DNA from: Chloroflexota bacterium
Lineage (GTDB): Bacteria; Chloroflexota; Dehalococcoidia; DSGV01
Assembly: GCA_021787985.1 (NCBI GenBank)
Contig: JAJYLG010000024.1
Span: 1-41,182 of the forward strand
Length of the DNA: 41,182 nt
Direction of reading: 5' to 3'
Shown here one piece after another: positions 2,328 to 10,677 of this stretch (position 1 is the first letter of the stretch; the number at the start of each line of letters is the position of its first letter). The position numbers and the translations under genes were made by a program. The notes beneath the pieces were generated by a model that was not told the DNA's origin, did not search any database, and worked only from the letters and a program-made list of their open reading frames with translations.

Positions 2328-2507
2328 CTAGCGCTTGCGACGCTTACGGGCTGCCTTCTTGCGAGCCGCGCGGGCTTTCTCACCGGGAGAGACGTAGTGG
2401 CGCCTCGCCTTCACCTCACGCAAGATGCCATCGCGCTGGACCATCTTCGTGAAGCGGGCCAGGAGCTGATCCCCCGTCTCGCCATCCCGCAGGTCGACCT
2501 GCAGCAA
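2328..2507 (-). CDS. rpsU: 30S ribosomal protein bS21
   Basis: A small, very basic protein (59 residues) ending in the Lys/Arg tail typical of bS21. The body matches the family: a short beta start, then LLARFTKMVQRDGILREVK and RRHYVSPGEKARAARKK. bS21 binds the 30S platform near the anti-Shine-Dalgarno end of 16S rRNA and helps initiation. I start it at TTG 2505-2507 because AGAAGGGGGGTGA lies immediately upstream at ideal spacing, differing by one base from the full complement of the 16S 3' end (AGAAAGGAGGTGA). An in-frame ATG at 2571-2573 with GGGAG before it would add 22 residues not expected in this family. The gene is monocistronic with a terminator hairpin just downstream. Confidence 0.85.
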   Translation of the reverse strand: MLQVDLRDGETGDQLLARFTKMVQRDGILREVKARRHYVSPGEKARAARKKAARKRRKR

Positions 2508-2630
2508 GCGCTCACCCCCCTTCTGGGCATACAGAACGCGGGGCTTGGCCCCGTGCTGCCTCCAGAGTAGCATGCGTTCTCCCAATGAGCGATCATCGGT
2601 GCACGGTTCGGCTGCGCCGGGTCTGTCGCC

Positions 2631-2655
2631 CGCCTCCGCGGGGCAGGCTCCGCGG
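2631..2655 (-). repeat. Dispersed GC-rich palindrome, copy 2
   Basis: Read on the minus strand it contains CGCGGAGCCTGCCCCGCGG, matching the copy at 14659-14677 apart from one C in the C-run. It lies between bS21 and the membrane protein gene at 2709. Confidence 0.5.
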
Positions 2656-2708
2656 GTGCGATGATGGGGCGGGGTGCGAGCGCTGCCCTCCGGGTGGAAT
2701 GAGTCCTC

Positions 2709-3395
2709 ATGCCTCAGGTGGAAAGTCGTGTCGTTCTGCCGCTGGTGGTGGTCCTCGGGACCTTCTTCATCGGCTGGTATCTCGTCGGCAACGAGATCAT
2801 GCGACGCCATGCGCGTCGGCTTGCCATCTGGAGCAAACGCACGCTCGACCCGCTGGGCGGCACGCAGGCAGTGCAGTGGCTGACGTTGCACGCCTTCCGG
2901 CTGGAGGTGGAGGGGGCCGCGGCGCCCTTCCAGCGCGGCTCGCTGACGGGCCTGACCGAGTCGTGGGACGTGCCCATGATCTGGCTGTGGAATCGCCTGC
3001 GCGGGCGGCGTGACATGGTCCTCGCGCAGATGACGCTGCACCAGCAGCCGCTCTGGGGGTTCGAGGTGTACCGGCCGGGGTCCTTGCTCAGCAAGGACTC
3101 GCGCCATCTCGCCCGGCTCGAGGGATGGGAGGAGCAGCCGCTCGGCGAGCTCATGGTCGCCGCGGCGGGCGACGCGCCACGCCAGCTCGCCGGCCGGCTG
3201 GTGGCGGAGCTGGGCGACTACCGCTCGCGACTGGTCCGTCTGGCGGTCCGCCGTGCCGGCCCGCACCTGACGCTGGCGCTTACCGTGCCGGAGCGTGGGC
3301 GCCCTGACCCGCTGGACTTCCAGCGCCTCCTGCAGCGGGTGGCGCGGGCGGCGCTGCGGCCCGAGGCGGATCTCCGTCCGCCTCCCGGCGCCTAG
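2709..3395 (+). CDS. Membrane-anchored protein of unknown function
   Basis: A 228-residue protein that I do not recognise. It has one N-terminal membrane segment at about residues 8-27 (VVLPLVVVLGTFFIGWYLVG), followed by a basic cytoplasmic-type stretch and a soluble domain rich in Arg and Leu. There is no signal-peptidase site and no motif of an enzyme family. Codon use matches its neighbours, which supports a real gene. It converges on the ArsA-like ATPase gene at 3392, and the two stop codons share the palindrome CTAG (3392-3395), so there is no room for a terminator between them. A functional link with the ATPase operon is possible but rests only on position. Confidence 0.6.
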   Translation: MPQVESRVVLPLVVVLGTFFIGWYLVGNEIMRRHARRLAIWSKRTLDPLGGTQAVQWLTLHAFRLEVEGAAAPFQRGSLTGLTESWDVPMIWLWNRLRGRRDMVLAQMTLHQQPLWGFEVYRPGSLLSKDSRHLARLEGWEEQPLGELMVAAAGDAPRQLAGRLVAELGDYRSRLVRLAVRRAGPHLTLALTVPERGRPDPLDFQRLLQRVARAALRPEADLRPPPGA

Positions 3396-4411
3396 CCGCT
3401 TGCTTGTGCGAAGACCGCCGTCGCCAGCCGGCCGAGCATCTCGACCCCGCGCACCTCGTTGTCGAACAGTGGCACGATGGCGCGCACCCGGCCGTCGAAC
3501 CGCTCCCAGATCGTCTGCATGTGCTCGTTCTGCATCGCCAGCCGGTTGCGGACGAACTCGGCGCTGTCCGCCCCGACGACGGATTCATCGATGCGCATGT
3601 TGACGATCACGCCGCCGACCGGGATGCCGAACTCGTGGAACCAGTCGATGAAGCGGCTGATGACGGCGATCGGCAGTGCTTCGGGCAGGGTGACGAAGAA
3701 GAAGGCCGTCTTCTGCTCGTCGGTCAGCAGCGCACGGGCGTGCTCCATCCGCTGCTGGAAGTCCATCAGGTAGTCCATCAACGGGTCCTGCTCCTTCTTC
3801 TTGGAGAAGGAGAGCATCTGGCGTAGGCTCTGGGCCTCTTCGCGGCTCTTGACCATCTTGTTGACCCAGAGCGAGTAGACCTTGCTCATGCCGAGCAGGC
3901 GGCGGGCGTTGGCGGTGGGCGCCGTGTCGAACACGTAGACGTCGTACTCGTCCTTGAACATGAGGTCGATCATGTTCTCGAACATCGCCGACTCCTCGAA
4001 AGCCGGGTTCATGGTCGCCGTCTCGACGAACTCGTCGGCCTTGGTGCTGATCTCGGCGAACTTGAGGAACCACTGGATCTTGTCACGGATCTCGCGCTTG
4101 GAGCGCTCGATGGTCTCGCGGGTGTCGATCTCGTACGCCCAGAGATTCGCAACGCCCGTCACCGGGGCGTGCTGGCCGAAGACGTTCTGGTCCAGCAGGC
4201 CGGAGAGGCTGTGGACCGGGTTGGTGGACGCGAGCAGCGTGCGCCGGCCGCTCCGGGCCGCCCAGAGCGCCGCGGCGCCGGCCATGACCGTCTTGCCCAC
4301 GCCACCCTTGCCGCCAAAGAAGACGTACTTGAGCTGCGGGTGCTGCTGAACGTACCCGGCCATGTCGAGCGTGACTCGTTGCTGGGCAGTGGACGCAGGG
4401 AGGCCGGTCAT
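3392..4411 (-). CDS. ArsA/Get3-family ATPase, subunit with Asn in place of catalytic Asp
   Basis: A 339-residue P-loop ATPase of the ArsA/Get3 (SIMIBI) class. The deviant Walker A motif GGKGGVGKT is at 33-41. Switch I reads STNPVHSLSG (62-71) where the family has STDPAHSLSD: the Asp equivalent to yeast Get3 Asp57, needed for ATP hydrolysis, is Asn64. The second motif is DTAPTAN (162-168) where the family has DTAPTGH. The CxxC zinc site of Get3 and the ArsA metal-binding cysteines are absent. The protein should bind ATP but may hydrolyse it poorly. Its ATG overlaps the stop of the paralogue upstream (ATGA), with GGAGGAG ten bases before it, so the two are probably made in equal amounts and form a heterodimer, replacing the A1-A2 tandem of ArsA. 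It is the last gene of the cstA cluster. What it energises or inserts is unknown. Confidence 0.9.
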   Translation of the reverse strand: MTGLPASTAQQRVTLDMAGYVQQHPQLKYVFFGGKGGVGKTVMAGAAALWAARSGRRTLLASTNPVHSLSGLLDQNVFGQHAPVTGVANLWAYEIDTRETIERSKREIRDKIQWFLKFAEISTKADEFVETATMNPAFEESAMFENMIDLMFKDEYDVYVFDTAPTANARRLLGMSKVYSLWVNKMVKSREEAQSLRQMLSFSKKKEQDPLMDYLMDFQQRMEHARALLTDEQKTAFFFVTLPEALPIAVISRFIDWFHEFGIPVGGVIVNMRIDESVVGADSAEFVRNRLAMQNEHMQTIWERFDGRVRAIVPLFDNEVRGVEMLGRLATAVFAQASG

Positions 4412-5418
4412 CGCTGGCTTGCTCCTCCGTACATGATGTCCGCCAGCCGCTCGATGGCCGGCAGCCCGGTGATGTCCCGCTCGAGCTCAGGGACGTAGGC
4501 CAGGACCTCATCGCCGAAGGTCTGGCGAATCTCGCCCAGGTAGCGCTGCTGCATGGCGATGCGGTTCTTGAGGTACTCGGGCACGTTCTGCTCTGCCAGC
4601 TCGGCCGGGACGACCCGGTTGACCACGTAGCCCGAGGTCGGCACGTCGAACCTGCTGAACAGCTCAGCGGCATTGCGCGTATCGACGATGATCATCTCCT
4701 CCGGCACGACGACGAAGAAGAAGGCCGTCTTCTCCTTATCGGTGAGAATGCGCGACGAGGCGTTGATGCGGGACTTGATGTCCAGCAGCTCGGCCAGGAT
4801 CTGGTCCTCCTCGGTGAGCTTCTGGCGCTTCATCACCTTGGACACCTGCTCGTACTCGCGCATCTCCTCCCGCAGCTTGGTGATCTTGTTGATCCACTCG
4901 TCGTAGACCTTGGCCATGGAGAGGTAGTAGAGCGCGTGGCCGAGCGGGACCAGGTCGTAGATGTAGTAGTCGTAATCACCCGCGACCACGATGTCGACGA
5001 CGGCGTCGAAGATGGCGCTCTCCTCCATGGCCGGCTCGGCGCTGGCGGCCTGGATATAGTGCTCGATCTCTTCGGGAACCTCGGAGAAGCCGTACATATC
5101 CAGGATCTTCTGGCGGATCTCGGCCTGGTACGCCTTGATGTGGCTGTCAGCGTCGATCTCTTGCGCCCAGAGGTTCTCCATGATCTTGACGGGGCCCTTG
5201 CCGAAGATGTCCTGCTGGAAGATGTCCGACAAGCTGGCCTGCGGGTCGACGGAGAACACGAGCACGCGATGGCCCTGGCGGGCAAGCCAGTACGCGGTCG
5301 CGGCCGAGAAGGTCGTCTTCCCGAGTCCTCCCTTACCGCCGAACATGATGTAGCGCCGCTCGGGGTGCTCGTTGAAGACTCGGGCGAGATCGGTCTGCTC
5401 GCGTGTCTGCGGGGCCAC
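4408..5418 (-). CDS. ArsA/Get3-family ATPase, probable catalytic subunit
   Basis: A 336-residue paralogue of the next gene. Walker A is GGKGGLGKTT at 27-36. Switch I is SVDPQASLSD (56-65), keeping the catalytic Asp (Asp58) but with Ala for the usual His. The second switch motif reads DLVPLGH (155-161), keeping the final Gly-His lost in the partner. Thus the two proteins have complementary changes, the pattern of a heterodimer in which each subunit keeps part of the active machinery. The VNRVVP motif near the C-terminus is also typical of ArsA. Start is GTG 5416-5418 with GAGGAG six bases upstream. It lies 43 nt after the second small membrane protein and overlaps the following ATPase by 4 nt. 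In ArsA and Get3 this class drives, respectively, an arsenite carrier and membrane-protein insertion; which mode applies here is not known. Confidence 0.92.
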   Translation of the reverse strand: MAPQTREQTDLARVFNEHPERRYIMFGGKGGLGKTTFSAATAYWLARQGHRVLVFSVDPQASLSDIFQQDIFGKGPVKIMENLWAQEIDADSHIKAYQAEIRQKILDMYGFSEVPEEIEHYIQAASAEPAMEESAIFDAVVDIVVAGDYDYYIYDLVPLGHALYYLSMAKVYDEWINKITKLREEMREYEQVSKVMKRQKLTEEDQILAELLDIKSRINASSRILTDKEKTAFFFVVVPEEMIIVDTRNAAELFSRFDVPTSGYVVNRVVPAELAEQNVPEYLKNRIAMQQRYLGEIRQTFGDEVLAYVPELERDITGLPAIERLADIMYGGASQR

Positions 5419-5461
5419 GGCAATCTCCTCGCGGTTGATGGGGGCGCCCGTCGCAGGGCCC

Positions 5462-5764
5462 TTAGCCGAGCGTGTCGGTGATGTCGCGCTCCCGCAGCAT
5501 GCGTCGCTTCCAGGTGCTCACCTGCGGGACGACGTACGGCAGCAGCCGCAGGCTGTAGTAGGGCGGGAGGATCGGCACTCCTAGCAGGTCGCCCATGGTG
5601 ATCAGGATGAACAGGTGCTCCATGCTGGCCCGCGTGCGAATCGCATAGCGGGACATGTCGTGGGAAGCCATGCCGTACATGACGTCCCTGGCGGCGCCGA
5701 ACGCGCCCAGGAATCGCTTCCGCTTCGGCTGAGGCTCGGGTGATTGCGCCTGTTCCGTTCCCAT
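5462..5764 (-). CDS. Small membrane protein, paralogue B of the cstA-ATPase cluster
   Basis: A 100-residue protein of no family I can name. A basic, Pro/Gln-rich N-terminus (1-20) leads to a helix-like stretch, then a hydrophobic core at about 50-81 with the motif MGDLLGVPILPPYY (57-70), and a basic tail WKRRMLRERD. The same motif and tail occur in the neighbouring 122-residue protein, so the two are paralogues. The core is long enough for one membrane span or a Pro-kinked hairpin. ATG 5762-5764 is preceded by ACGAGGTCACC. It sits between its paralogue (25 nt upstream) and the ATPase pair (43 nt downstream), all on one strand. I infer a membrane partner of the ATPases or of CstA. It does not obviously resemble YbdD/YjiX, the small partners of E. 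coli CstA and BtsT. Confidence 0.75.
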   Translation of the reverse strand: MGTEQAQSPEPQPKRKRFLGAFGAARDVMYGMASHDMSRYAIRTRASMEHLFILITMGDLLGVPILPPYYSLRLLPYVVPQVSTWKRRMLRERDITDTLG

Positions 5765-5788
5765 GGTGACCTCGTCGACTCCTCTGGC

Positions 5789-6157
5789 CTACAGGCCGTG
5801 CAGATCGAACTCCTCGCTTTCGAGCGGGTGGCGCTCGCGCAGCACGCGCCGGCGCCATGCCTCGACACTCCCGACGAAGTACGGGACGAGGCGCAGCGCG
5901 TAGTACGGCGGCAGAATCGGCACCCCGAGCGTGTCTCCCATGACCATGAAGATCAGCAGGTTCTCGAGGTCCGCACGGACATGAGCCGCGTGCCGTTCAA
6001 ACTCGAGACCGGTCGCGCCGTACAGCATCTGGCGCAGCGCCCGCGCGGCCGCCCGCGCCCGCCTGGAGACGGCTTGACGGGACTGGGGGGCGGCGCGCTG
6101 CATGTCCTGCGGCCGCTCGCCGCCCCCGTGCTCGACATGTCGCGGATGTGGGGACAA
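5789..6157 (-). CDS. Small membrane protein, paralogue A of the cstA-ATPase cluster
   Basis: A 122-residue protein with an Arg/Ala-rich N-terminal 45 residues, a hydrophobic core at about 66-95 with MGDTLGVPILPPYY (73-86), a basic WRRRVLRER segment and an acidic C-terminus. It shares the core motif and the W-R-R-x-L-R-E-R segment with the 100-residue paralogue downstream. The first codon is a TTG at 6155-6157, one base after the cstA stop. AGGAGGT lies inside the end of cstA (6171-6177), 13 bases upstream, a little far but strong. An in-frame ATG at 6101-6103 would give a 104-residue protein closer in size to the paralogue. Either way its translation follows directly from cstA. Function is unknown; membrane location is likely. 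Confidence 0.72.
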   Translation of the reverse strand: MSPHPRHVEHGGGERPQDMQRAAPQSRQAVSRRARAAARALRQMLYGATGLEFERHAAHVRADLENLLIFMVMGDTLGVPILPPYYALRLVPYFVGSVEAWRRRVLRERHPLESEEFDLHGL

Positions 6158-6158
6158 G

Positions 6159-7979
6159 CTACGCCGTCACACCTCCTGGAGCAGGCGCCGGCTCCACGGG
6201 CCGCTCGCGATAACGCTGGAACGCGCGGTAGCCGTCCCAGCCAATGAAGAGCGCGGCAACGAAGAGGATGAGCCCGATGATGATCGTCACGAGACTCCCG
6301 ATGACCGCGATCTCGTGTCCCGCGACGCCCCACTGCTTGACGAGCACGATCTTGTAAAGATTGTAGAGGATCACCAGGTCAGCGGCCATGGTGGTGACGT
6401 ACATGAACACGGCCGGAATGCCGGCGTAGAGCGGATTGCGCCGGGTCGAGGCAAGCCAGACCGTGACCACCAGCAGGCTTAGCGCGGCCATGAGCTGGTT
6501 GGCGGCACCGAAAAGCTGCCAGATGTAGATCCAGGTGCCGGAGATGACCAGCAGGAAGGTGGCCGCCATGCTGACCAGCGTTCCCACGTGGATGTTCTTG
6601 AAGATCGGGCTGCGGTCGCCCAGGCCCTCGGCCAACGTGACGCGCATCAGCCGGAACACGAGCTGCACGACCGTGATCACGATGACCACGAAGGCCGCGA
6701 AACCGAGCGCGGTGCCGTAGGTCAGCGGCACGCGGAAGATGTTGAGGAAGTCGCCTATGCCCTGCGCGAAGCTGGCCACTGGCGTTGCGCCGGGCTTGGC
6801 GGCCACCGCGATCGCCAGCAGCGAGAGCAGGCCAAGCGTGAACTCGCCGAACATCGCCCCGCCGCCCACGGGAAGCATGTCTTCCTCGTTCTCGATCTGG
6901 CGCGCGGTGCCGACGGACCCAATCAACGCGTGCCAGCCGGATATCGCTCCACAGGCGATGGTGACGAACAGCATCGGCCAGAGCGGTTGGATTTGCCCGG
7001 AAGCCCGGATGCTGGCCGGTCCACCGAAATGGGTGAACCCGGCGATATTGAAGGTGGATAGGTCGTGCTTGATGAAGAACGCGAGGAAGGCGCCCAGGCC
7101 GGCGAAGACGACCGTGAGCCCCGTGATCCAGAAGCCGATGTAGTTCACGGGCTGCGCATAGCGCCAGATCGGCAGGATCGCCCCGAGGTAGCAGAAGCCG
7201 AACAGGAAGAACAGCCAGAACACGAAGCTGATCGTGATCGGCACGCTCTGCTTGCCCGCCGGGTTCAGCGGGTTGAGCACCGTGACGATTCCGCCGGGCC
7301 TGAGGTCGTTCAGCCAGGTGTTGAAGTTCTTGAACGTCGTGGCGACCGGTCCGGTCGCGCTGGCGTTGAGGAAGATCGCCAGCAGGGTGCCGCCCACAAC
7401 GATCAACGTGACCGGGATCAGGTCCATCTTCATCCGGTAGAGCATGTGGCCGGCGGCGAGCCCGAGCACGGCCAGGGCCACGATCCCCAGCGGCACGCGC
7501 GGGTCGGTGAGCGTGCCCGCGACGATGTTGCCGAACGCCCCGGCGATGAGGAGCAGGTAGAAGAAGATGAACAGCAGCAGCAGCCGCCGCGTCCGCGGGT
7601 GGATCAGCCGGTGGGCGGTGGCCGACAGCGAGTTCCCCTCGTTGCGGACGGATACCACGATGGCGCTGTAGTCGCTGACCCAACCCATGAACATGACGCC
7701 CAGCACCAGCCAGATCAGGCTGGGCACCCAGCCCCACAGGGCCGCCGCCGTGATGGCCCCGACGATGGGGCCGGCGGCCGCGATCGACTTGAAGTGGTAG
7801 CCGAACAGCACGTTTCGGTTGGTGGGCATGAAGTCCACGCCGTCCATGTAGAGGCGCGCCGGCGTGGCGCGCTTCTTGTCCGCCTGGATCACCGTCCGGT
7901 CGATCCGGCGTGCGTAGAATCGGTAACCCAGGTAGATGGCGAGGACACCGATGATGATCGCTACCAGCGTGTTACCCAA
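6159..7979 (-). CDS. cstA: CstA-family peptide/pyruvate carrier
   Basis: A 606-residue polytopic membrane protein of the carbon-starvation CstA family, shorter than E. coli CstA (about 700). Family features are clear: GYRFYARRID near the N-terminus, the DGVDFMPTNRNVLFGYHFKS stretch at about 46-65, AAGPIVGAI, GWVSDYSA and GAISGWHALIGSVGTARQIE in the middle. E. coli CstA and BtsT import pyruvate or peptides with protons, and this protein probably acts as a similar secondary carrier. The start is TTG 7977-7979, with AAGGGGGG nine bases upstream; the first membrane span begins right after it. It is the first gene of a minus-strand cluster with two small membrane proteins and two ArsA-like ATPases, a context I do not know for characterised cstA genes. 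acs upstream suggests shared use in carbon scavenging. Confidence 0.93.
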   Translation of the reverse strand: MGNTLVAIIIGVLAIYLGYRFYARRIDRTVIQADKKRATPARLYMDGVDFMPTNRNVLFGYHFKSIAAAGPIVGAITAAALWGWVPSLIWLVLGVMFMGWVSDYSAIVVSVRNEGNSLSATAHRLIHPRTRRLLLLFIFFYLLLIAGAFGNIVAGTLTDPRVPLGIVALAVLGLAAGHMLYRMKMDLIPVTLIVVGGTLLAIFLNASATGPVATTFKNFNTWLNDLRPGGIVTVLNPLNPAGKQSVPITISFVFWLFFLFGFCYLGAILPIWRYAQPVNYIGFWITGLTVVFAGLGAFLAFFIKHDLSTFNIAGFTHFGGPASIRASGQIQPLWPMLFVTIACGAISGWHALIGSVGTARQIENEEDMLPVGGGAMFGEFTLGLLSLLAIAVAAKPGATPVASFAQGIGDFLNIFRVPLTYGTALGFAAFVVIVITVVQLVFRLMRVTLAEGLGDRSPIFKNIHVGTLVSMAATFLLVISGTWIYIWQLFGAANQLMAALSLLVVTVWLASTRRNPLYAGIPAVFMYVTTMAADLVILYNLYKIVLVKQWGVAGHEIAVIGSLVTIIIGLILFVAALFIGWDGYRAFQRYRERPVEPAPAPGGVTA

Positions 7980-8095: not shown

Positions 8096-8113
8096 GGTAA
8101 CCCTCCCGTTACC
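8096..8113. promoter_or_regulatory. Inverted repeat upstream of cstA
   Basis: GGTAAC (8096-8101), six bases, GTTACC (8108-8113): a perfect 6-bp dyad. It overlaps the stop of the thioredoxin-fold gene and lies about 115 bp before the cstA start. It has the shape of an operator for a dimeric repressor of the cstA cluster, but a weak terminator hairpin is also possible. Confidence 0.35.
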
Positions 8114-8567
8114 CTCCTTCCCCAGCCAGCCGCTGATCCGTGCGCACGCCGAGACGCTCGGCGACCGCGCGCTCTAGCCGCTCCTGGTCGAAGCCTGCGA
8201 TGCGCTGACGCCCATCGATGACGAAAGAAGGGAAGCGGCGCACGCGATGGCGGAGCGTCATGACGACACCCTGGATGGAGGCCGCGTCCACCACGCGCAC
8301 GCGCATGCGGTCGCCGTAGCGGCCGGCCGCGCCGCGGACCCAGTCGCCAATCCTGGCGTACTCGGCTGCGAGTTCCGGAGGCAGCAGCCCAGCGCGGCGC
8401 TGCTCGGCGTGCAGCCGACGGCCGATGCCAAGCTCGTTCCAAACGATCTCGCAGTGCTGACAGTGGAAAAACTCGGTGGGGGCGAAGGCGATCACCTCCA
8501 CCGTCACGACGGGCGCCGGTGCTACCGCCGTGGCCGTGCCGGCTATAGTTCGTATCACACGCATCAT
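8109..8567 (-). CDS. Thioredoxin-fold protein with CxxC motif
   Basis: A 152-residue protein with a thioredoxin-like active site FFHCQHCEIVW (Cys36, Cys39) after a beta strand VTVEVIAFAPTEF, and a second part FPSFVIDGRQRIAGFD, where Phe-Pro is the cis-proline loop next to the active site. The insertion between them (about 45 residues, Arg/Ala-rich) is longer than in plain thioredoxin. There is no clear signal peptide, so it is probably a cytoplasmic thiol oxidoreductase or electron carrier. Two ATG codons lie in tandem (8565-8567 and 8562-8564) behind AGGAG. A good sigma-70 promoter precedes it. It lies between acs and the cstA cluster on the same strand. The exact subfamily is not clear to me. 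Confidence 0.7.
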   Translation of the reverse strand: MMRVIRTIAGTATAVAPAPVVTVEVIAFAPTEFFHCQHCEIVWNELGIGRRLHAEQRRAGLLPPELAAEYARIGDWVRGAAGRYGDRMRVRVVDAASIQGVVMTLRHRVRRFPSFVIDGRQRIAGFDQERLERAVAERLGVRTDQRLAGEGG

Positions 8568-8659: not shown

Positions 8660-10576
8660 TCACTCCTCCAACGTCGATGTATCGCCCGTGTCGATGCCCA
8701 GCTCGATCGCCTTCAGCAGGCGGCGCATGATCTTGCCGCTTCGTGTCTTGGGCAGCTTATCGGCGAACGCGATCTCATCGGGGATGGCGATCGGCCCCAG
8801 CGTGTGGCGGACGTGGTCCTTCAGCACCTGCTCCAGCTCGGGTGAGCCGGTGTGACCGACGCGCAGGATGACGAACGCCTTGATGTTCTCGCCTTTCAGC
8901 GGATCCGGGCGTCCGATGGCGGCGGCCTCGGCCACGGCTGGATGGCTGACGAGCGCGCTCTCCACGTCGGCCGTACCGATGCGATGGCCGGCCACATTGA
9001 GCACATCGTCGGCGCGACCCACCACGGTGAAGTAGCCGTCGGCGTCGCGCACGCCCACGTCGCCGGTGGTGTATGCGTTGGGCACCTGGCCCCAGTCGCG
9101 CGCGTAGCGCTCGGGGTCGCCGAAGACCGTGCGGAAGAGGTGCGGGAATGGCTTGCGCAGGACCAGCAGCCCGCCCTTGTCCGGTGGCAGGGGTCTGCCC
9201 TGTCGGTCGACCACATCGGCCACGACGCCCGGCAGCGGCTTGCCCACCTTGGCCGGACGGGCGGCCTGCACCGGAAGCGTGCCCAGGCACGGCCCACCGG
9301 TCTCCGTCTGCCACCAGTTGTCGGCCACATAGCCCCACTCGCCCGAGCCGCACAGGACGCGGTAGGCCCACTCCCACGCCTCGGGGTTGAGCGGCTCACC
9401 GGCGCAGGTGAAGAGGCGAATGCTGCGCAGGTCGTGGCGCTCCGGCAGCTCGTCGCCGTGACGCATGAACATGCGCACCGCCGTCGGCGCCGTGAAGATG
9501 ACGGAGATGCGGTAACGCTCGACCACCTCCCAGGCCACGGCCGGATGGGGATAGTCGATCGCGCCCTCGCGGAAGACGGTGGTCGCACCCGCGAGCAGCG
9601 GGGCGTAGACGATGTAGGAGTGGCCCACGACCCAGCCGATGTCAGACGTGCAGAAGAAGACGTCGTCGTCCTTGATGTCCCAGAAGCGGGTCATGTGGTA
9701 GTAGGTGCCGACCATGTAGCCGCCGTGGACGTGGACCACGCCCTTTGGCTTGCCGGTCGTCCCGCTGGTGTAGAGGACGTAGAGTGGGTCCTCGGCCTCC
9801 ATCACCGCGGCCGGACAGTGCGCCGGCTGACGCCGCACCAGCTCCTCGAAGTCCTCCTCGCGCGGCGCGACCAGCTCGGTCTGGGGATGCGCGCGGCGGT
9901 GGACCACCACGTGCGCGACGAAGTCGAGGCCGTCGATCGCCTCGTCGACGATCGCTTTCAGCTCGACGGTCTTGCCGCGGCGGAAGCCGATGTCGGCCGT
10001 GACGATGACGCGCGCCTGGGCGTCGACGATGCGGCTGCGCAGCGCCTGCACGCTGAAACCCGCATACACGACGGAGTGGACGGCGCCGATTCGGGCGCAG
10101 GCGAGCATGGTGACGACGCCTTCGAGCGTGAGCGGCATGTAGACCACGACGCGGTCCCCGCGCTCCACGCCCAGCGCGCGGAGGGCGTTGGCGGTGCGGG
10201 CGACCATGTCCAGTAGCTGGCCGTAGGTCACCTGGCGCTCGGTGCCGTCCTCCCCCAGCCAGGTGTAGGCGACCTTGTTCTTCCTGCCGCGTTGCACGTT
10301 GCGGTCCAGGCAGTTGTAGGTGATGTTGCACTGCCCGCCGATGAACCAGCGGAAGGTGGGGTACGTCCACTCGAAGACGCGGTCCCAGGGCCGGAACCAC
10401 TCCAGCTCCTTCGCCACCTTCGCCCAGAAACCCTCCGGGTCCTCGATCGAGCGACGGTACTCCGTGTCGTAATCCTGCAGGCGGGCCGCCGAGGCCAGCG
10501 GCGCCGGCGGTGGGACCTCCCGGCCGGTCTGCAGGAGCTGGCTGATCTCGCCCGTGCTGATGCTGGAATCGGTCAC
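8660..10576 (-). CDS. acs: Acetyl-coenzyme A synthetase
   Basis: A 638-residue AMP-forming acetate:CoA ligase that activates acetate via acetyl-AMP. The order of motifs is standard: N-terminal FWAKVAKELEWFRPWDRVFE and QCNITYNCLDRNV, the P-loop-like YTSGTTGKPKGVVHVHGG, the WWQTETGG region of the acetate/AMP site, GRADDVLNVAGHRI (hinge), and PKTRSGKIMRR near the C-terminus with the catalytic lysine that is the usual target of acetylation. Start is GTG 10574-10576, three bases after GGGGGGGAGA; a longer frame upstream lacks family similarity. It is divergent from the ModE-like gene with a 15-bp palindrome between. Downstream on the same strand are the thioredoxin-fold gene and the cstA cluster, so acetate and pyruvate/peptide uptake may be used together. 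Confidence 0.96.
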   Translation of the reverse strand: MTDSSISTGEISQLLQTGREVPPPAPLASAARLQDYDTEYRRSIEDPEGFWAKVAKELEWFRPWDRVFEWTYPTFRWFIGGQCNITYNCLDRNVQRGRKNKVAYTWLGEDGTERQVTYGQLLDMVARTANALRALGVERGDRVVVYMPLTLEGVVTMLACARIGAVHSVVYAGFSVQALRSRIVDAQARVIVTADIGFRRGKTVELKAIVDEAIDGLDFVAHVVVHRRAHPQTELVAPREEDFEELVRRQPAHCPAAVMEAEDPLYVLYTSGTTGKPKGVVHVHGGYMVGTYYHMTRFWDIKDDDVFFCTSDIGWVVGHSYIVYAPLLAGATTVFREGAIDYPHPAVAWEVVERYRISVIFTAPTAVRMFMRHGDELPERHDLRSIRLFTCAGEPLNPEAWEWAYRVLCGSGEWGYVADNWWQTETGGPCLGTLPVQAARPAKVGKPLPGVVADVVDRQGRPLPPDKGGLLVLRKPFPHLFRTVFGDPERYARDWGQVPNAYTTGDVGVRDADGYFTVVGRADDVLNVAGHRIGTADVESALVSHPAVAEAAAIGRPDPLKGENIKAFVILRVGHTGSPELEQVLKDHVRHTLGPIAIPDEIAFADKLPKTRSGKIMRRLLKAIELGIDTGDTSTLEE

Positions 10577-10602
10577 GCTCTCCCCCCCATGCGTATTGCC
10601 GT

Positions 10603-10617
10603 ATCGTGCCCCACGAT
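10603..10617. promoter_or_regulatory. Palindrome between acs and the ModE-like gene
   Basis: ATCGTG-CCC-CACGAT is a perfect 6-bp dyad, 26 bp before the acs GTG. Its place in a divergent intergenic region suggests an operator; the factor is unknown. Confidence 0.35.
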
Positions 10618-10677
10618 GTCCGCAGGAGGGAGGCGTGTCAATGGCCGCGACGTCGGCACGGGCGGCGGCCATGGCGC

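Follow-up and report, generated by a model that had tools for sequence, protein, structure and literature searches.

What is a pair of soluble ATPases doing behind the gene of a secondary carrier? This question is raised by a locus within positions 1 to 41,182 (hereafter the window) of contig JAJYLG010000024.1 of a Chloroflexota bacterium (assembly GCA_021787985.1). Five minus-strand open reading frames (ORFs) between positions 3392 and 7979 encode a CstA-family carrier (cstA), two small proteins (CstX1 and CstX2, genes x1 and x2) and two ArsA/Get3-type ATPases (T1 and T2), and their coordinates reproduced the spacing that a first-pass annotation had reported (one 4-nt overlap; gaps of 1, 24 and 43 nt). 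That annotation had also suggested that the ATPases may energise or gate CstA, which is plausible. We propose that the operon is a paired-type member of the CstA–CstX–ArsA transport modules, in which a T1–T2 heterodimer with one hydrolysing site would serve as an ATP switch that reaches CstA by way of CstX, and we put the probability of this reading at roughly one half.

The ATPase pair

T1 and T2 both matched PF02374 (E=1.5e-75 and 3.1e-66) and were 36% identical to each other, in agreement with their earlier description as two related ArsA/Get3-type ATPases. Residues were counted over 75 T1 and 70 T2 sequences, with columns aligned to the archaeal Get3 proteins 3zq6 and 3ug6. At the catalytic position of switch I, which corresponds to D57 of Get3, Asp was found in 74 of 75 T1 sequences and Asn in all 69 readable T2 sequences; the window carries SVDPQASLSD in T1 and STNPVHSLSG in T2. 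Switch II was virtually invariant within each group, reading DLVPLGHALYY in T1 and DTAPTANARRL in T2, compared with DTAPTGHTLR in Get3, ArsA and single-copy ATPases. Both proteins retained the KGGxGKT P-loop and the Asn of the A-loop. When a strict pattern was applied, the Asp/Asn pairing was present at 66 of 69 loci; in at least two of the remaining three, one gene is fragmented. Hydrolysis by yeast Get3 requires D57, and the D57N protein binds ATP without hydrolysing it and traps the ATP-bound closed state (PMC12506534). The Asn of T2 is predicted to reproduce this hydrolysis-dead state, making T2 a putative natural counterpart of Get3 D57N. The signature Lys of the P-loop in this class of ATPases acts across the dimer, so that a T1–T2 heterodimer could bind two ATP molecules and hydrolyse one. 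The strict complementary split of the Asp/Asn and switch-II residues between T1 and T2 supports, at the level of sequence, the first-pass idea that the duplication serves a hetero-oligomer.

In a phylogenetic tree, T1 and T2 each formed one clade (support 100/100) and the two clades were sisters (100/98), although the program warned of long branches; the topology indicates that T1 and T2 stem from one old duplication. Single-ATPase operons were compared as well, comprising actinobacterial operons and the second operon of a Desulfobacterales genome. The actinobacterial ATPases were canonical (STDPAHS/DTAPTGHTLR), Asp was present in 15/15 single ATPases, and each operon had one CstX, suggesting that the copy numbers of CstX and ATPase rise together from 1:1 to 2:2, despite a later loss of x1 in several lineages. 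A second cstA operon is found in the Desulfobacterales genome that also holds locus L030 (L146, G295:C1:937000-946000); it encodes one CstX-like protein and one Asp-bearing ATPase (SMDPAHNQRD / DMAPTALTLRF), with a 165-aa membrane-like protein between them.

Neither ATPase resembled an arsenite-pump subunit closely. Against TIGR04291, the ArsA pump family with a cut-off of 650 bits, T1 and T2 scored only 99 and 106 bits, and both are single-domain proteins, not a two-domain chain of about 590 aa. Neither contains any Cys in the window, and therefore they have no metalloid site; neither arsR nor arsB was found among the scanned neighbours of the operon.

Conservation of the unit and its adaptors

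A CstX alignment was used to scan 84,980 species genomes, which gave 397 relatives, and the best 80 loci were fetched and their gene orders set by profile envelopes. The order cstA-x1-x2-T1-T2 was found at 37 of the 80 loci as plain matches and at nine more with a third x; in four others the sole departure was one gene read as two parts, and contig ends truncated most of the rest. This arrangement is far beyond chance. It occurred in metagenome-assembled genomes (MAGs) labelled Chloroflexi, Rokubacteria, Deltaproteobacteria, Actinobacteria, Bacillota, Spirochaetes and Bacteroidetes, labels that can be wrong for MAGs. An apparent order cstA-T1-x1-x2-T2 and extra T copies arose from ORF coordinates that ran from stop to stop, and vanished once the profile envelopes were applied. 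The third CstX copy lies directly after T2 (L027, L032, L033, L041, L043, L047, L054, L059 and L064, mostly Anaerolineales-like MAGs). No CstX of the paired type was found in the plasmid collection.

Co-occurrence was examined in 300 Chloroflexota genomes that were at least 90% complete. CstX was present in 28 and CstA in 31 of them (Fisher p=2e-36), and all 28 CstX genomes carried CstA, each with at least two CstX. By their listed coordinates, the CstA and CstX genes lay together in 25 of these 28 genomes and were unlinked in G566, G578 and G623. The three genomes with CstA and no CstX were G081 and G227, whose PF02554 scores were above all others in the sample, and G241, whose CstA is close to a contig end. 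Among 25 CstX-bearing genomes tested for both partners, CstA was present in 22 and YbdD/YjiX (PF04328), the small partner of CstA in Escherichia coli, in none; PF04328 likewise had no match in the window's own genome or in 151 sampled genomes of the phylum. The 28/28 co-occurrence and the gene order conserved in several phyla support the earlier claim of one functional unit, more strongly than the first-pass annotation could tell.

It could be argued that the five genes are co-regulated neighbours without physical coupling. Co-transcription alone would yield the arrangement, and in a consensus scan no terminator-like site was found between the five genes, the only such stems lying within the cstA coding region; the sole promoter-like match on the operon strand in the same scan lay at 8641-8613, upstream of the whole unit. 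Neither a terminator of its own for cstA nor a separate promoter for the other genes, which together would have spoken against the first-pass annotation by its own account, was seen. Nothing specific speaks for mere co-regulation, and the strict gene order across phyla, the 28/28 co-occurrence that includes three genomes with unlinked genes and the absence of the alternative partner YbdD make it very unlikely.

We found that the two small proteins of the window were 48% identical to each other and matched the NCBIfam family NF041419 ('cory-CC-star') with E=5.5e-10 and 7.4e-9, below its curated cut-off of 80 bits. A profile comparison of paired-type CstX with the actinobacterial protein of the NF041419 type gave a probability of 87.5% (E=3.6e-6). 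A C-terminal CC was present in 0/157 paired-type CstX and in 14/14 actinobacterial CstX. The earlier description as two related small membrane proteins was right about the relationship; the membrane nature is uncertain, because the peak 19-residue hydropathy is borderline here (1.55-1.59) and lower in the actinobacterial relatives (0.9-1.4), and CstX may be a peripheral protein. The AlphaFold2 model of CstX2 suggested two long helices with poor confidence (pLDDT 66), and a Foldseek search with this model returned no usable match. Kinship with YbdD/YjiX had been suggested by an N-terminal resemblance seen by eye and the C-terminal CC shared with actinobacterial CstX, and was rejected, since hhalign gave probabilities of 1.3% and 0.2% and column-shuffled controls scored equally high. 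The actinobacterial CstX proteins (L099-L112, L120-L136) and the E. coli ybdD product (L088) do both end in two cysteines, and the profile test did not relate them.

At every locus with both genes on the contig, x2 adjoined T1, including loci without cstA nearby. Four truly split operons kept an x beside cstA and x2 beside T1-T2 (L038, L048/L138, L049/L139 and L076/L137), which suggests that CstX1 faces CstA and CstX2 faces the ATPases. In three of the four, the x on the cstA side scored slightly better with the x2 than with the x1 profile and was called x1 by position. Three other apparent splits (L029/L141, L031/L142 and L058/L140) seem to be intact operons that were broken in assembly.

The carrier itself is the single CstA of its genome. 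Its AlphaFold2 model was confident (pLDDT 86.6, pTM 0.87), and the top Foldseek matches listed from the PDB were carriers of the LeuT, SLC6, SLC7, SLC12 and KimA types, with E down to 1.7e-5 and modest TM-scores of 0.3-0.5; CstA is therefore predicted to be an APC/LeuT-fold carrier. By analogy with E. coli CstA, its substrate may be pyruvate or peptides. In the mechanism that we propose, T1 and T2 would be the two halves of an obligate, Get3/ArsA-like heterodimer, with ATP bound by both and hydrolysed by T1 only, while the CstX proteins would serve as adaptors, CstX2 docking on the ATPase pair and CstX1 on CstA. ATP binding would close the dimer, hydrolysis at the single T1 site would reset it, and the cycle would be passed through CstX to gate or drive the carrier.

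An alternative is that T1 and T2 act in biogenesis and not on transport, as a pair of Get3-like chaperones for the delivery or insertion of CstX or for the assembly of CstA. Among solved structures they are closest to archaeal Get3 proteins (3zq6 and 3ug6), and CstX is short and partly hydrophobic; its hydropathy is only borderline and is not transmembrane-like in Actinobacteria. In the helical subdomain that forms the client groove of Get3, the best 15-residue hydropathy was 0.14 in T1, -0.04 in T2 and -0.26 in single ATPases, against 0.59 in archaeal Get3, and all three were also less Met-rich, a comparison that involves two Get3 sequences only. The CxxC present in both archaeal Get3 is missing from T1 and T2 as well as from the single ATPases, and a chaperone of general use would have no reason to accompany cstA in 28/28 genomes. 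We consider this alternative unlikely; one locus speaks in its favour: L052 (CP070746.1, a Desulfobacterales MAG with a 7.0-Mb chromosome) has x2-T1-T2 and no CstA.

The same locus is the first of several points that count against an ATP switch on CstA, because it implies that the ATPase part may have another role or client, or else that the MAG lost or misses cstA. Secondly, x1 is missing from several lineages (L053, L065, L070, L084, L030 and L036), and therefore the two-adaptor arrangement is not obligatory. Thirdly, E. coli CstA takes up pyruvate with YbdD as its required small partner and no ATPase (PMC5847655), showing that energising is not needed in principle for this type of carrier. 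In 2010 Castillo and Saier put forward CstX as the link by which ArsA would energise CstA (PMC2963123), and we found no later experimental work in the searchable literature, which covers few subscription journals; their idea has seemingly never been tested.

Flanking genes R and Y

The five genes of the earlier account are all real, and two conserved flanking partners, which we call R and Y, had been missed (Table 1). Of 81 loci, 42 had a homologue of R, and one also lay beside 10 of 15 additional cstA regions that were fetched. The gene mostly precedes cstA immediately, and R travels with cstA when the operon splits. Its residues C36, C39, E40 and P113 are invariant, and it is weakly thioredoxin-like: thioredoxins appeared in a PDB profile search (E=0.003), and relatives matched DUF1525/Thioredoxin_3.

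R bears on a further alternative, in which T1 and T2 would respond to the ATP/ADP ratio and, aided by CstX and R, would gate CstA but supply no power to it. A single hydrolysing site, judged from the residue counts, would suit a slow switch, a partner with an invariant CxxC travels with cstA, and carbon-starvation carriers would gain from a gate that reads the energy state. R is present at only about half of the loci, however, and we rate a purely regulatory or signalling role as rather improbable. If the proposed ATP switch on CstA is extended to include R, a LeuT/APC-fold carrier would be gated or driven, in several bacterial phyla, by an obligate asymmetric one-site heterodimer through paired CstX and a thioredoxin-like CxxC partner; we put this fuller scheme forward tentatively, at less than even odds.

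Y had homologues at 37 of 81 loci, almost all of them encoded on the opposite strand, with a position between cstA and x1 (22 loci) or just after T2 (nine loci). The latter position is that of the window, where Y and T2 are convergent with a 4-nt overlap. No Pfam family was found for Y. A relationship with CCDC47 (PF07946) was rejected: two members matched with E of only 0.013 and 0.13, a genome-level search found the PF07946-matching Y in only 1 of 22 genomes, and with the Y profile CCDC47 did not outscore shuffled sequences (rank 106 of 154). Y is possibly related to the archaeal CstY, a protein of about 210 aa with one transmembrane segment (PMC2963123).

Table 1. Genes of the operon and its surroundings (window coordinates).
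Gene	Position	Strand	Start	Length	Features
cstA	7979-6159	-	TTG	606 aa	Predicted APC/LeuT-fold secondary carrier; PF02554 E=3.4e-101
x1 (CstX1)	6157-5789	-	TTG	122 aa	Small adaptor-like protein; NF041419 39.1 bits, x1 profile
x2 (CstX2)	5764-5462	-	ATG	100 aa	Small adaptor-like protein; NF041419 35.5 bits
T1	5418-4408	-	GTG	336 aa	ArsA/Get3-type ATPase, predicted hydrolysing subunit; PF02374, TIGR00345
T2	4411-3392	-	ATG	339 aa	ArsA/Get3-type ATPase, predicted ATP-binding, non-hydrolysing; PF02374, TIGR00345
R	8109-8567	-		152 aa	Upstream of cstA; weakly thioredoxin-like, with CxxCE and a cis-Pro-like RRYPAFI motif
Y	2709-3395	+		228 aa	Hydrophobic N-terminus (one likely transmembrane segment) and polar part of ~190 aa; convergent with T2
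acs	8660-10672	-			Acetyl-CoA synthetase; upstream of R
bS21 ORF	2328-3266	-			Ends in ribosomal protein bS21 (last 55 aa; PF01165 E=7.5e-16)

The start of x1 is uncertain; an alternative ATG at 6103 would shorten the protein to 104 aa and widen the gap to cstA to 55 nt. The acetyl-CoA synthetase gene on the same strand was not a frequent neighbour at related loci, nor was any conserved substrate-specific neighbour found there, and it therefore gives no firm hint of the substrate. The upstream part of the bS21 ORF, which overlaps Y on the opposite strand, is probably non-coding.

Comparison with known systems

The first-pass annotation knew of no described system of this composition, which was wrong. 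In 2010 Castillo and Saier described 26 CstA–ArsA associations, of which 24 also involved a small protein that they named CstX, including adjacent ArsA pairs (cluster 15, Par and Sth) and CstX pairs (Par and Tko); they noted that the Asp of the SXD motif 'can be substituted only by N', recorded CstY in archaea and reported no ars genes near these operons (PMC2963123). Hence neither the gene set nor the energising hypothesis is new. The window has the same CstA, CstX and single-domain ArsA (336 and 339 aa versus about 330) and the same lack of arsR and arsB. What goes beyond that study is the division of Asp and Asn within the pair, the switch-II split, the covariation of copy numbers, the split-operon pattern and the genes R and Y. 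The earlier interpretation is supported in part, for its functional unit and its hetero-oligomer, and its observation was real and correctly placed but mostly anticipated; the pairing of one putatively active with one putatively silent ATPase and the two extra partner genes appear to be undescribed.

In many uncultured bacteria CstA is accompanied by two small adaptor-like proteins and by matched ATPases, a pair of which only one member apparently splits ATP. This strict asymmetry and the extra partners make the 2010 proposal directly testable: because the equivalent of D57N is fixed naturally in every readable T2, the single changes N-to-D in T2 and D-to-N in T1 predict opposite outcomes. If the proposal is true, a soluble ATPase pair would exert direct ATP control over a LeuT-fold secondary carrier, as has otherwise been claimed chiefly for arsenite pumps.

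E. coli CstA–YbdD likewise combines CstA with a small partner, but YbdD has no detectable homology to CstX. Rv3679–Rv3680 of Mycobacterium tuberculosis (BagA/BagB, PDB 6bs3) resembles T1–T2 in having two different ArsA/Get3-like chains in one solved entry, with weak sequence similarity only (E about 2e-7 and 4e-5). The ArsA of the ArsAB pump shares PF02374, the proposed energising of a carrier and two non-identical ATPase units; its two halves both keep SxDPA and DTAPTGHT, whereas T1 and T2 are separate polypeptides without Cys and without ars genes nearby. Get3/TRC40 belongs to the same fold family, and its engineered D57N form is the equivalent of T2. Get3 forms symmetric homodimers whose client groove is hydrophobic, and it has canonical SxDPAH and DTAPTGHTLR motifs, in contrast to two divergent subunits with an apparently more polar helical subdomain, no CxxC and the departures SVDPQA/DLVPLGHALY in T1 and STNPVH/DTAPTANARR in T2. 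In the actinobacterial cory-CC-star type, a homologous small protein also lies beside cstA and an ArsA-type ATPase gene; there, one small protein ending in CC accompanies one canonical ATPase, whereas the window has two of each and no CC.

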